Source: Mariniblastus sp. (GTDB lineage: Bacteria > Planctomycetota > Planctomycetia > Pirellulales > Pirellulaceae). Taken from it: DNA of 34,251 bases. Below the pieces are notes generated by a model, which saw only the letters and a program-made list of their open reading frames with translations, had not been told where the DNA came from and did not search any database. Positions 24,915-32,097 of the stretch are shown here, one piece after another; the stretch's first letter is position 1; each line of letters opens with the position of its first letter. Both the position numbers and the translations under genes were made by a program. The DNA is taken from positions 1 to 34,251 of the forward strand of contig JALZWN010000032.1 of NCBI GenBank assembly GCA_023300235.1, given 5' to 3'.

Positions 24915-27900
24915 CTAGCCCGCTGCTGCTGCTCGCTGGCTCAGGAACTCTTTCAAGTCACTGGCGTTTACTTCATCGACTTTCGAAAAGCCTAATCGAA
25001 CGACGTCTGATTCATTTTCAGCAGTAACGTCCGTATCGCTGGCCAATCCCGATACCGCATCGTGTTCTACTTCGCCTTTAGGGACAGGGACATTCAGCCA
25101 CAATCCATCGGCCTGCTTCGTGTGAATGCTCGCCCATGGCAGTTGGTGATCAGGTAGCACCACGTGAACGACTTGTTCATTGGCCCACTGAAACTCGCTG
25201 TCGGGAGCAGCTTCGGACAGCGTTGCTTCCAACGCTTCCAAAACTTCCGGAGCCCACGCCGCCTCGGCATCGAAGCCTTTTTGCATCAGGTGCCATTTTT
25301 TGCCCAGCTTAGCCCAGGGGGTTTGAGCCGCCATGTCGATCGGTTTGGCGTTTTTCTTATTTTGGAAACTGTTGGCCGCGGTTTCTAAGAACTCCCAGAA
25401 GCCCGGAATGTCGATCTCTTTCAGGTTGTTGGCTTTGATTTCAACTTCCTGCCACGATGCCTTGATACTGGTCAAACGAACTCGCGGAGCGTTGCCGTAT
25501 ACCGGGATGTCATCCAAGTCGTTGGCCGAAAGCAAAGGAATCTGCGCGACCAATTCTTCTCGTTTGAAAGTCTTTGGGCGGACGCGGAACTTGATCTTCA
25601 AGAACCAAGGGTCACCAGTGAGTGCTTGGAAGAACCAGTTTTCGTTCTTTTTCGTGCCAGCAATTTCGACAACCGATTGGTCGTTCCAGTTCGTCGCCGC
25701 AAAGCCTTCGTGCTGCTGGATCGTGTCGACGACTCGTTTGAGCACATCGCCGTCCCAGTTGACGGTCTCGCCCGAACGCCCGACTCGATCTTTGGTGTGC
25801 CAACGTCGGCCGTCGGATTCCCATGGCATGAGCGCGGACAAGCCGACGTCTTCGATGTCCAAATCGCCTTTCTTCCAGCGATCGTCTTTGTCTGGGTCGT
25901 AGTTTTTTCGTTTCTTGTACGGGTCTTCTTCTAGCACTGGGATCAACGCTTCACCGGTGTAGCTGCGCGGGATCCCGGCTTTGCTCTTGCCGGTTTTGGA
26001 GGCCGCTGCCAGAGCCGCCTTGGCGTACTCGACCACCATCTCGGGGGTTCCTTGAGCCACAATCGAACCGCCGTTGAGGCCGGCTTCGGGGCCGAGTTCG
26101 ATCATCCAGTCAGCGGCTTTGATCAGGTCAAGGTTGTGTTCGATCAAAACGACGGTGTTGCCCACGTCGATCAAGCGTTGGATAACGTCCAGTAGTTTCT
26201 GCAAATCGTCAAAGTGCAAACCTGTCGTCGGTTCGTCCAGCAAGTACAACGTACGGCCAGTGTCTGGTCGAGAAAGTTCGGCTGAGAGTTTCACTCGTTG
26301 AGCCTCACCGCCGGACAGGGTCGGAGCGGATTGCCCCAACTGCAAGTAGTCGAGTCCCACATCGCAGAGCGTCTGCAGAATGCGACGGATCTTGGGAATG
26401 TTGTGGAACAGTTGAACTGCTTCGCCGCAAGGCATCTTCAAAATGTCGTCGATCGATTTGCCTTCGTAGCGAACCGCCAGCGTCTCTTCGTTGTAGCGAC
26501 GGCCTTTACAAGTTTCACATTCGACCCAAACGTCCGGCAAGAAGTGCATCTCGATGCAACGTTGACCGTTACCCGCACACTCTTCGCAGCGACCGCCGGG
26601 GACGTTGAAGCTAAAGCGACGTGACGTGAATCCGCGAAGTTTCGCATCTGGCAAGTGGGCAAACAGTTCGCGGATCGCATCAAACGCACCGGTGTAAGTC
26701 GCCGGGTTGGACGAAGGGCTGTTGCCCAAAGGAGTTTGGTCGACGCGAATCACTTTGTTGATGTGCTCGATCCCACGGATGCCTCGGTGGGCTCCCGGAG
26801 TCTGAGCGGATCGGTGGAGACGACGAGCAAGTGCTTTGAACAGGATATCGTTGACTAGCGAGCTCTTGCCACAGCCCGACGGTCCGGTCACAACCGAAAG
26901 TGATTCCAGTGGAAACTTGACTTCGATGTTCTTCAGGTTGTTGTGTTTGGCTCCGACGACGTCCAGCGTTTGGGCCAGCATGTCGGTCGAGTTTACTTTC
27001 ACGTTGGCGAGCACTTGAGCTTCGGCCTTGGTGGGAGCCTTGGTTTTGGCCAGTTTTTCGGTGGCAGTTTTTTCGGCGGCCGGCTTTTTGGCCGCCTTTT
27101 TCTTAGTCGCTTTCTTTGGCTTGACCACGCTTTGCGGGAACTTCTTCGGGTCTAAAACAGGGCGGCGGTTGAGCGGAATTGGGATCGCTTTTTTGCCGCT
27201 CAGGTAGGGGCCCGTTACTGAACCCGCTTTTTTACCCAGCGACTCAGGCGTGCCTTGGGCCACGATTTCGCCGCCGCCGATGCCGGCTTTAGGGCCGAAA
27301 TCACAGATCGCGTCGCTGTTGGAGATGACCTCTTTGTCGTGTTCCACCACGATCAATGTGTTGCCCAAATCGCGGAGACGATGGAGGGCTTTTAGCAAAC
27401 GAGTGTTGTCGCGTGGGTGCAAACCGATCGTTGGTTCGTCCAGAACGTACAGCACGCCGCATAGGCCACTACCAAGTTGCCGAGCCAAACGAATACGCTG
27501 GGCTTCGCCGTTGGACAATGAAGCCGCGGTTCGGTTGAGCGTTAGGTATTCAAGGCCGACGTCGTTGAGGAAGTCGACGCGGCCAACGATCTCGCGAATC
27601 AATTCGCCAGCGATTTTCTTTTCGCGTTTGTCCAGTTTCCAGCTCTTGAGCATCTTCGACAGTCCTTCGATCGGCATCCGACAAATGCCATCGATCGTCG
27701 TATCGCGGAAACGCATCGCCGCCGCGTCGTCTCGCAAGCGACTACCACCGCAGGATCCGCATTCCACCTCGCCGATCAACGACTGCATCCGTTGGCGCAG
27801 TACCGCCGACAATCGTGAGGCCTCTTCCATCGTCGGGTAGGCCCCTTTGTACTGGAAGCTGAACTGGACTTTGTCGTCAGCGTTCTTGACGTCAAACCAG

Positions 27901-30900
27901 CGATCGCCGGTTCCGTAAAAAACCATCCGGCGATGGCGAGATTCCATTTGCGAGAACGGCATGTCGCTTGGAATACCGGTGCCCTTGGTCCACGCGGTCA
28001 GCATCGCTTGCGACATCGGCGACTTCATGTCCGGCCACAGCAACACTGCGCCTTGCTCCAGTGAAAGCTCGGCGTCGTTCATGATCGCCGCAGACGTCGC
28101 ACCGGTTTGAGTACCGATGCCGTCGCAGTCAGGACACCAGCCAAGTTGGCTGTTGAAGCTAAAGTTGTTCGGCGTCAACGTGTCGAAACTGCGTCCACAG
28201 CAACTGCACGATAAATGCTGGCTGTGCTTGATCACGTTCCAGTGTTGTTCCGGCATGTTATCCGAAGGTTCGGCAACATTGATCACGCCTTTGCCGATCG
28301 ACAACGCTGATTCGACACTGTCGGCGATGCGTGAGCGAGACGATTTTTTGATTGCGATCCGGTCGACCACGATTTCGATTGCGTGGCGCGAGCGGCGATT
28401 AAGCGCTGGAACTTCGTCGATTCCGTGAGTCACGTTGTCCACGCGAACACGGATGAAACCGTTGCCTTGGATTTCTTCAAACAGTTGTTCGTAAGTCTGA
28501 TTGGTGTCCAGTTCAACCGGAGCCAACAACAGCAACCGTTGGCCTTCGGGGTACTCCATGATCTTGTCGACGACTTGGTCGCTGGTTTGCGTGCCAATGC
28601 CTTCGTCACAATCGGGGCAGTAAGGTGTTCCCAGTCGAGCAATCAAAATCCGCAAGTAATCGTAGACTTCGGTCACGGTTCCGACGGTACTTCGCGGAGT
28701 CGAGCCGAGGTTTTTTTGTTCGATCGCGATCGCGGGCGAGAGACCGTCGACCTGTTCGACTTTTGGTTTTTCCAATTGATTGACGAATTGCCGAGCGTAG
28801 GAACTCAGGCTTTCGACGTAACGTCGTTGACCTTCGGCATAGATCGTGTCCATCGCCATCGAAGATTTACCACTTCCCGACGGGCCTGAGAAGACCGTCA
28901 TCTTGTCCCGTTCGATGTCCACATCGACTGACCGCAAGCTATGTTGTTCAGCGCCGCGAACTTTGATCATGGTCGCTTCGACAGGTTTCTTGCTTTTGGT
29001 TTCGGATGGTTTTGGAATCGCCGGTCGGTCGGCCAACGCTTTCTTGAGTGCGCGACCGGTGTAGGATTCTTCGCAGGCGGCGATCACTTCTGGCGGGCCG
29101 CAGCAAACGACTTTGCCACCGCCCGAACCGCCTTCGGGACCGATGTCGATGATCCAGTCCGCGGTTTTGATGACGTCCAAGTTGTGTTCGACGACCAAAA
29201 CCGTGTTGCCGGCTTCGACGAAGTTTTGCAAAACCTTCAGCAACATCGAGATGTCGGCAAAGTGCAAACCGGTCGTCGGTTCATCCAATAAGTACAACGT
29301 CTTGCCGGTGCTGCGTTTGACTAGCTCCCGGGCAAGCTTGATCCGTTGGGCCTCGCCACCGGAGAGCGTTGGAGAGGGTTGGCCAATTTTCAGGTAGTCC
29401 AATCCAACCGCGTCGAGCGTTTGAAGCTTTGACAGGACTTTGGGTTGGTTTTCGAAGAACACCATCGCTTCGCGGATGTCCATGTTTAAAACGTCGGCGA
29501 TGGATTTGCCGCGGAACTTCACTTGCAGCGTTTCGCGATTGAAGCGCTGGCCTTCGCAAATATTACACGTGACCCAAACGTCGGCCAAGAAATCCATCTC
29601 CAGTTTATTCGAGCCGTTGCCTTCACACGCCTCGCAGCGTCCGCCTTTAACGTTGAAGCTAAAGCGGCCTGGCGAGTAACCACGGGTTTTTGATTCAGGC
29701 AGTTGCGTGAATAACTTGCGAATCTCATCAAACAGCTTGATGTAGGTGCCGGGATTTGATCGAGGCGTACGACCGATCGGCGATTGATCGATCGCGATCA
29801 TCTTGTCCATCAATTCGACGCCTTCGAGCGACCCGTAGCTGCCGGCCTCGGAGATGCCGCCGTTGAGTTTCTCGCGGAGTTCTTCTTTGACGATGTCGTT
29901 TACAAGCGAGCTTTTGCCGCTGCCGCTGACGCCGGTGACGCAGACGAATTTGCCCAATGGGATTTCAACGTCGACGTTTTTCAGGTTGTTGTGCGTCGCT
30001 CCGTTGACACGGAAAACGTGGTTGCCGTCGAACTTTCGGCGTTGGTTGGGAACCTCGATCTCCAAGCGGCCGGACAAGTACTGAGCGGTCAACGACTTTG
30101 TGTTTTTGATGATCTCCGATGGGTGGCCTTCGACGACCACTTCACCACCGCGGACACCGGGGCCGGGGCCAAAGTCGATCAAGTAATCGGCCGCTCGCAT
30201 CGTGTCTTCGTCGTGTTCGACCACGACCACGGTGTTGCCCAGGTCGCGTAAGTGTTGCAGCGTGCTGACCAAGCGGTCGTTGTCGCGGGCGTGCAAACCG
30301 ATTGAAGGTTCGTCCAAAATGTACAACACACCCACCAAACCAGCACCGATCTGGCCCGCCAAACGAATCCGTTGGCTCTCGCCGCCCGAGAGTGTCGGGG
30401 CGGTGCGGTTTAGCATCAGGTATTCCAAGCCGACGTTTAGCAAGAAGCCGAGTCGGTTGCGGATCTCTTTGAGCGGTTCGGTAGCGACGTATTGCTTGGT
30501 GTCGTCAAGGACCAGTCCGCTAAAGAATTTGAACGCGTCGTCGATGGATAGGTCACAGACTTCCGGCAACGATAGGCTTGGTTTGTCTTTGAACGATTCG
30601 TGAATTGATTCCAACCGGAAATGCCGAGCCTGCTCGTTGAGCCGATCACCGTTACAGCGAACGCAATGCAGGTCGGACATGAAAGTTTCCAGCTTGCGGA
30701 TCTTTGCCGCTCCGCTGGTCCCGCGATATTTTTCGTCCAGTTCCGCGATCACGCCGTCGAACGTGCCGCCGTACTTCATCGGCGATGCGCCACCTTTCCA
30801 GGTGTAGGTGATGGCCAGGTTGCCGGTGCCGTAGAGCCAGAAGTTTTGCTGTTGCTCGGTTAAGTCCTCCCAAGCGCTTTCTAGCATGGTGCCGGCATCA

Positions 30901-32021
30901 AAGCCGTGTTCTTTTTCCAGTGTGTCGGCAACGCCTTGGTAGATGTGCTGACGCCAACGGCCGAGTTCTTTCCATTTGCCCAGCAGTTCGATGCAGCCTT
31001 GTTGGAACGATCGCGAAGTATCGTTAATCAACAGGGTCGAATCAAAGGTAAATACCTCGCCCATTCCGTCGCAGCCACCGCACATGCCTTGCGGGCTGTT
31101 GAAGCTAAACATCTGGGGCGTAGGCGGATTGAAGCTGACTCCACACGCCGCACAAGCGTAATCGCAGCTGTAAACACGGTCACCGAAGGCAACCGTCTGG
31201 GCGGATGACTTGGTGCGGCCACGTTTGGTTTTTGTTTTTTTGCCGGTGTCTTCATCGGCGGGTTCGGGAGCTTGTTGCGGCGCACTGGGGGCTTCGTTTT
31301 CGTTAGCCGAAGTGACGATCAGTGCTCCCTTGCCGAGTTTTAGTGCGGTATCGACAGATTCAGCCAGCCGCGACTTGATGGTAGGTTTCAGTTCCAAACG
31401 GTCGACGACGACTTCGACATGGTGGCGGCGAGTACGATCGAGATTGATTTCGGAGTTCAATGAAACCATCTGCCCATCGACACGGGCACGCACGTAACCT
31501 TTTTTGACCAGTTCGACGAACAGCTCGCGGTGTTCACCTTTTTGGGCGCGGACGACGGGCGCGAGCAGGTAGAACTCGGTGCCGGCTTCCATCCGCATGA
31601 TCCCGCCAACAATTTGGTCACGGGTTTGAGCGGCGATCGGTTGGTCGCATTTCGGGCAGAACCCCTGAGCCACTCGCGCGTACAAAATGCGCAAAAAGTC
31701 GTAAACTTCGGTGATCGTTCCGACTGTCGATCGGGGGTTTTTGCCGGATGACTTCTGCGAGATCGAAATCGAGGGGCTTAGGCCAGAAATCAAATCGACG
31801 TCCGGCTTTGGCATTTGCCCCAAGAACTGTCGAGCGAAACTGGAGAGGCTTTCTAGGTAACGACGTTGACCTTCGGCAAAGACCGTATCAAACGCGAACG
31901 AGCTCTTACCGCTGCCGCTGACGCCGGTCAGGCAAATCAATTGGTTTCGAGGTAAGACGAGGTTGACGTCACGAAGGTTATGTTCGCGGGCACCTTTGAC
32001 GACAATATCCGAAGCGGGCAT
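24915..32021 (-). CDS. uvrA: Tandem (double) excinuclease ABC subunit A with C-terminal extension
   Basis: UvrA detects bulky DNA damage as a homodimer and loads UvrB in nucleotide excision repair. This 2368-residue protein holds two whole UvrA units, so one chain could form the dimer. Unit 1 (about 1-990) has Walker A motifs at 32 and 696 and LSGGE at 544 and 886. Unit 2 (about 1014-2032) has Walker A at 1045 and 1712, LSNGE at 1502 and LSGGE at 1902. Each unit has its zinc-finger cysteines, for example CEACEGNG...CNICEGQRF and CEECAGNG...[10 protein letters not shown] Lys/Ala-rich linker (about 1631-1671) splits unit 2. The last ~336 residues, with [20 protein letters not shown], are not part of UvrA and not recognised. 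The ATG at 32021 is chosen because homology starts there and the -10 box lies upstream. It is monocistronic; uvrB and uvrC are not nearby. Confidence 0.93.
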
Positions 32022-32091
32022 AGAGGCAGCGTTTTCATCCAAGTTGAGCAAACAGAAACGAATCCTGCCGGTGGCAAAATTCGAACCGAGC

Positions 32092-32097
32092 ATTATA
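32092..32097 (-). promoter_or_regulatory. Candidate -10 box of the uvrA promoter
   Basis: A perfect TATAAT lies on the minus strand about 70 bases before the uvrA ATG. No good -35 box is visible 16-18 bases further upstream, and I see no clear LexA-type palindrome. Its position argues against starts upstream of 32021. Confidence 0.45.

Follow-up and report, generated by a model that had tools for sequence, protein, structure and literature searches.

Ordinary UvrA (TIGR00630, PRK00349) acts as a dimer, UvrA2. UvrA2 is described as symmetric; it probes the helix while being blind to which strand is damaged, and recruits UvrB to each side, and the UvrB contacts are crossed within the dimer (PMC7616783). 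Each monomer holds both of its own ATP sites, the proximal site being formed by nucleotide-binding domain I (NBD-I) with signature II and the distal site by NBD-II with signature I (PMC6486640), and residues 131-250 of UvrA bind UvrB and Mfd (PMC7083872). A planctomycete double UvrA, a fusion of two uvrA genes that is twice as long as the E. coli protein, was described in 2021 in a proteome study of Tuwongella immobilis, in which UvrABCD are present in the proteome (PMC8567305). Here, we analyzed a gene of this kind from a Mariniblastus sp. (Planctomycetota; Pirellulaceae). It lies in a stretch of 34,251 nucleotides (the window), which is the entire contig C32 (JALZWN010000032.1) of assembly GCA_023300235.1, a genome of 4.73 Mb in 311 contigs. 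The window protein consists of two fused UvrAs and is twice the E. coli length, as in the published description, and because that fusion is in print, the double UvrA described in an earlier prediction from the sequence (the original prediction) was already known. The section of PMC8567305 on the fusion describes no asymmetry between units, no C-terminal domain, and no origin shared with Chlamydiae (Figure 13, its phylogeny, lies outside the part covered), and with the same coverage of that paper our literature searches found no report of the unit asymmetry, the ancestry shared with Chlamydiae, or the predicted double-wing tail presented below.

The fused UvrA gene occupies positions 24915..32093, and all of its features are on the minus strand. 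The frame runs from 32093 to 24915 and encodes 2392 residues (a chain of about 260 kDa, as estimated from length) from its first ATG and 2368 residues from an internal ATG at 32021. In an alignment of 121 sequences, made of the window protein plus the 120 database hits ranked highest for it (1980-2583 residues long; scoring was limited to the 8000 candidates that had the most words in common with the query), mean occupancy was 0.40 over residues 1-40 and 0.98 over residues 41-80. Because conservation starts near the second ATG, the 2368-residue product named in the original prediction is likely to be correct, and the ATG at 32021 is probably the true start.

Unit 1 (residues 28-1020; 29034..32012) contains NBD-I, signature domain I with the UvrB-binding and DNA-binding domains, NBD-II, and signature domain II with the zinc hairpin, and unit 2 (residues 1041-2032; 25998..28973) has the same domain order. 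TIGR00630 (cut-off 729.8 bits) matched unit 1 at 29082-32006 with 1279 bits and unit 2 in two pieces (27156-28967 and 26034-26987) with 1206 bits together, covering model positions 2-923 in each case; the E-values of 0, 1.2e-207, and 7.3e-154 exclude a chance match. The Pfam domains UvrA_inter (PF17760) and UvrA_DNA-bind (PF17755) each matched two stretches of the protein. There are four Walker A motifs (residues 57, 721, 1070, and 1737), four ABC signatures (residues 568, 910, 1526, and 1926), four Walker B motifs, four switch histidines, and 12 CxxC pairs, which bears out the earlier count of two Walker A motifs, two ABC signatures, and zinc-finger cysteines per unit. All four kinds of ATPase motif are kept across the 121 aligned sequences with few exceptions (the first Walker A is gapped in three rows, and one switch reads VAHN). 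Signature I of unit 2 is LSNGE instead of LSGGE in 120 of these 121 sequences; we considered this as a general trait of unit 2, but among 17 unit 2s from the class as a whole a single one carries it, and it is therefore a local trait. Both units possess the complete domain complement of an ordinary UvrA and its motifs for two ATP sites; the window protein differs from such a UvrA in joining two diverged units (420 identities over 919 aligned residues) in a single chain and in its C-terminal tail. The linker between the units is 34 residues long (1011-1044; 28962..29063), counted between the residues that match E. coli UvrA 930 and 6 in the alignment, and is 28-44 residues long in seven Chlamydiae; three planctomycete rows gave no usable value. 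The original prediction thus had the frame and its two complete units right, and it missed the minus strand, the conserved tail, and the other UvrA-like genes in the genome.

To compare the two halves, we counted how many of 271 columns that are invariant in at least 33 of 34 single UvrAs are kept in each unit, having excluded six divergent single UvrAs (among them the copy on contig C27 of the same genome) before the count. We set the domain borders ourselves, and they lie near the T. maritima modules given in PMC7616783. The window protein keeps 256 of the 271 columns in unit 1 and 239 in unit 2. Across the class (genomes marked as the same class or closer), unit 1 retains 96-99% of the invariants in five domains and 90% in the DNA-binding insert, and unit 2 retains 85% in the UvrB-binding domain and 87-94% in the other domains. 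The UvrB-binding domain declines from 83/91 in unit 1 to 51/91 in unit 2 in Chlamydiae, and from 39/39 to 25/39 in the families coded f25, f40, and f53; in family f22, the DNA-binding insert shows the reverse, with 12/16 in unit 1 and 14/16 in unit 2. When the contact domains are set against the ATPase and signature I parts, the pooled counts, which are descriptive only because the cells are not independent, are 1015/1139 versus 3229/3468 for unit 2 and 1221/1273 versus 3758/3876 for unit 1 in the class, and 280/469 versus 1231/1428 for unit 2 and 400/469 versus 1264/1428 for unit 1 in Chlamydiae.

Two sites separate the units most clearly. The site of E. coli K159 is lysine in 34/34 single UvrAs and in 29/32 unit 1s (two others have Arg and one has X), and in only 1/30 unit 2s. 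The site of E. coli R695 is basic in 34/34 singles, 6/6 divergent singles, and 32/32 unit 1s, and again in only 1/30 unit 2s. In the window protein, the counterpart of K159-G160 is Lys185-Gly186 in the UvrB-binding domain of unit 1 (31536..31541), which is kept in 119 of the 121 aligned sequences, with a gap in the other two, and Asn1198-Gln1199 in unit 2 (28497..28502), where the first position is never lysine (0/121) and the second is glycine in 3/121. The counterpart of R695 and R698 is Arg775...Arg778 in signature domain II of unit 1 (29760..29771), with Arg at both positions in 121/121, and Asn1791...Ser1794 in unit 2 (26712..26723), with Asn in 121/121 followed by Ser, Thr, or Ala in 121/121. 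The same contrast between units at K159 and R695 recurs in two more fused genes (L257 and L258). By coordinates, the residue of chain 2r6f that corresponds to R695 is at position 711, which we take to be Bst R691 provided that the chain carries a 20-residue tag. We take the R695 site to contact DNA; our literature search found no paper on a DNA-contact role of such residues. The contact domains of unit 2 lack residues that are still present in unit 1, and the consistency of these losses makes it likely, at the level of sequence, that the pair would work unevenly and not as equals. This supports the original suggestion that the halves of a fused UvrA are able to specialize.

The fused gene is widespread. 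When 16 candidates per genome were scored, at least 37 of 40 genomes of the family, the present one included, had a fused frame of 1980-2462 residues among the matches listed, and a genome of the same genus (G433) has a 2408-residue frame with identical architecture and 73% identity to the window protein. Among the matches listed, no fused frame was found in G409, where two long frames lie near contig edges by their coordinates, or in G377, where a unit-1-like frame ends at the contig end. G417 has a 1105-residue unit-1-like frame (L245, on contig C18), the C-terminal ~100 residues of which, read by eye, resemble unit 2 out of frame and may reflect a sequencing slip or decay. The original prediction had allowed that an assembly or sequencing error joined two adjacent uvrA genes. 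With the fusion recurring in the family genomes, the same-genus genome, the database hits, and PMC8567305, and with nothing observed in its favor, this explanation is ruled out for practical purposes, and we consider it vanishingly improbable.

The genus coded g30 has a 1.3-unit UvrA, consisting of unit 1 and the beginning of unit 2 (~270 positions, up to and including the UvrB-binding domain) with no tail; the frames are 1277 residues in G018 (L176, contig C1), 1255 residues in G124 (L177, contig C1), and, judged by length only, 1255 residues in G099. The rest of unit 2 was not found in the 13 kb examined per locus in G018 and G124. In an outgroup survey of 12 genomes chosen from named records, all seven Chlamydiae had a fused UvrA of 1866-1971 residues, a Poribacteria genome (G402) had a fused 1982-residue frame (L189) together with a single-length one, and two Kiritimatiellae, one Ignavibacteriae, and one Hydrogenedentota genome had single-length UvrA frames only. 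L189 has unit 2-type residues at K159, G160, and R695 and carries no tail. NCBIfam has an excinuclease ABC subunit A model of 1809 positions (NF001885, PRK00635), presumably of the chlamydial protein; the window protein scores 1354.7 bits against it, under the cut-off of 3054. At E <= 1e-100, UvrA was unmatched in 4 of 393 genomes of the planctomycete phylum (G055, G121, G149, and G268, all of family f49), a count made with two candidates scored per genome, which does not imply absence.

Both the sequence groupings and formal tests bear on the origin of the fusion. We built a tree from 102 unit sequences with FastTree and mixture-model trees from 57 and then 32 rows, having first excluded a duplicate locus (L203) and what is left of unit 2 in L176 and L177. 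The FastTree backbone was poorly separated, and the mixture-model trees were better. The unrooted 32-row tree places the unit 1s of ten proteins (from the class, f22, and Chlamydiae) in one group (100/99) and separates their unit 2s from all other rows (99/97); in the 57-row tree, all 18 unit 2s, including those of Poribacteria and f25/f40/f53, lie on one side of a branch with support of 96.6. The chlamydial protein is like the window protein in being a tandem in one frame with its units in the corresponding groups, and it differs in that its unit 2 is far more diverged and no tail was matched. In approximately unbiased (AU) tests, a tree with all unit 1s constrained together was not rejected (p-AU 0.315), and a duplication inside the planctomycete lineage, with the 21 class and f22 rows held together, was rejected (p-AU 0.011), which together with the grouping of chlamydial and planctomycete unit 1s argues against the within-planctomycete duplication raised in the original prediction. 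The duplication is not recent, and the simplest reading is that one old fusion was followed by losses or transfers. Long branches call for caution with a single-fusion reading. The planctomycete and chlamydial fusions might instead be independent, their unit 2s having been altered in parallel: a separate duplication in Chlamydiae is disfavored but not rejected (p-AU 0.094), the f25 and f40 units have no firm placement in the 32-row tree, and the f25/f40/f53 fused UvrAs as a set are loosely placed, and branches are long. The joint grouping of unit 1s, the split of unit 2s in both mixture-model trees, and the rejection of a planctomycete duplication all point away from this, and we consider it improbable.

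We give an even chance to the reading that two diverged units in one chain form a built-in asymmetric dimer, in which unit 1 loads UvrB and unit 2 is mainly an ATPase and DNA-clamping partner. The 34-residue linker would let the units pair in cis; the UvrB dock on the UvrB-binding domain of unit 1 would stay strong while that of unit 2 would be weakened or repurposed; the unequal docks would give a sensor with fixed polarity; unit 2 would serve unit 1 through ATP hydrolysis and DNA clamping; and the tail may contribute a DNA contact. Several observations weigh against this proposal. Of the 37 family genomes that carry the fusion, 36 have one or more additional, shorter UvrA-like frames among the matches listed (G421 being the genome with no other), and this overturned our earlier view, drawn from counts at two candidates per genome, that the fused gene is the sole UvrA of its family. 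The genome of the window itself has, besides the fused gene, a divergent single UvrA of 939 residues (C27:8260-10980, L002), which answers the question of a second uvrA raised by the original prediction, and a UvrA-like frame that has no DNA-binding insert and runs off its contig (C257:9041-10702, L005 and L006). These further genes make it less likely here that a single chain takes the place of the homodimer; that idea suits Chlamydiae better, the fused gene being the only match at E <= 1e-60 in 7/7 of their genomes. Loss of K159 is also not unique to unit 2, being seen in 3/6 divergent singles and in four single paralogs. Other short or divergent UvrA paralogs recur across the family.

Alternatively, the dimer could form in trans between two fused chains, through their unit 1s in the manner of UvrA2, leaving unit 2 as an accessory arm that, for example, holds Mfd or tethers DNA. 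Unit 1 is the canonical half, other UvrA-like genes accompany the fused one, and in g30 the shortened unit 2 without a tail means that unit 1 must pair with another partner there; both halves nevertheless keep their ATPase motifs in the 121 sequences, with few exceptions, and Chlamydiae retain both halves although the fused gene is their only UvrA match, so that we regard trans pairing as possible but unlikely. Decay would be a different account of the asymmetry: with selection on unit 2 relaxed, its losses would be drift and not specialization, and the two units would have been fused by historical accident. Unit 2 branches do tend to be longer than those of the corresponding unit 1s, the chlamydial unit 2 keeps a smaller share of the contact-domain invariants (280/469) than of those in the ATPase and signature I parts (1231/1428), and unit 2 is truncated in L176 and L177. 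Set against drift are the loss of the basic R695 residue in 29/30 unit 2s from five lineages, its uniform replacement by Asn in all 121 close sequences, and the persistence of the zinc cysteines and ATPase motifs of unit 2, and we judge decay to be a rather poor explanation. Returning to the built-in asymmetric dimer, we hold its fullest form to be doubtful: a covalent, asymmetric UvrA2 that arose once, before planctomycetes and Chlamydiae split, in which unit 1 would own the UvrB dock, unit 2 would have given up UvrB and DNA contacts, a single polarity would allow a one-sided handover of UvrB, and a double-wing pair would grip the flanking DNA.

The C-terminal region (357 residues, 2036-2392; 24918..25988) is conserved in relatives and has no Pfam match. 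It contains two homologous repeats, R1 (residues 2086-2246; 25356..25838), which is predicted to adopt a YjbR/MotA-like double-wing fold, and R2 (residues 2256-2392; 24918..25328), with a similar predicted fold. By structure prediction, both repeats resemble the double wing of YjbR/MmcQ (PF04237, DUF419) and the T4 MotA C-terminal domain. A sequence relation to YjbR/MmcQ is not detectable, and the window protein carries the predicted fold twice, in diverged copies joined to UvrA. For the tail of the window protein, only HHH_6 (E 0.2) matched Pfam at E <= 1; PF04237 was not among the 25 of 30 Pfam families listed for 52 tail sequences; hhalign of the tail against PF04237 gave a probability <= 1; and a search of the same genome for PF04237 gave no match at E <= 10. 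We therefore rejected the tail as a true PF04237 member on sequence and retained the likeness of fold. Foldseek on the whole tail was weak, with no hit at E <= 0.001 and low TM scores, and R1 alone was weak too. The tail was also considered as a stand-alone gene: of 65 matches of 200-622 residues, the 11 inspected read as detached UvrA C termini or tail ends, and none was clearly independent. A tail search gave no match in 7/7 Chlamydiae. DNA binding by the YjbR/MmcQ family is itself a prediction (PMC7641849). In E. coli, yjbR adjoins uvrA tail to tail; the adjacency is only suggestive because the genes converge. A literature search found no paper that combines UvrA with YjbR or MmcQ.

Within unit 2, a poorly conserved stretch rich in lysine and alanine (residues 1640-1710; 26964..27176) separates the NBD-I half from the NBD-II half; it recalls histone H1 tails and varies among relatives. 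A promoter scan gave 0 promoter-like and 7 terminator-like sites, both under the shuffled mean. The neighbors of the UvrA frame (a methyltransferase, a redoxin-cytochrome protein, an MMPL transporter, and a PEP-CTERM protein) have no link to repair by Pfam, and the ribosomal protein genes S3 and L4 lie on the same contig at 9092-12564. The genome has one full UvrB match. Its best UvrC match is a 449-residue frame (C303:6625-7452, L240) that scores 150.6 bits against a family cut-off of 285.45, and UvrC may be short, diverged, or absent from the assembly.

With halves that are unequal and covalently fixed, each UvrB dock and DNA grip could be altered one half at a time within a single chain, to learn whether the two docks and the two grips are all required. 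Through the tail, excision repair would be connected with a fold of the YjbR kind. If its descent is common with that of the chlamydial one, the fusion would also serve as an uncommon molecular marker for this region of the bacterial phylogeny.

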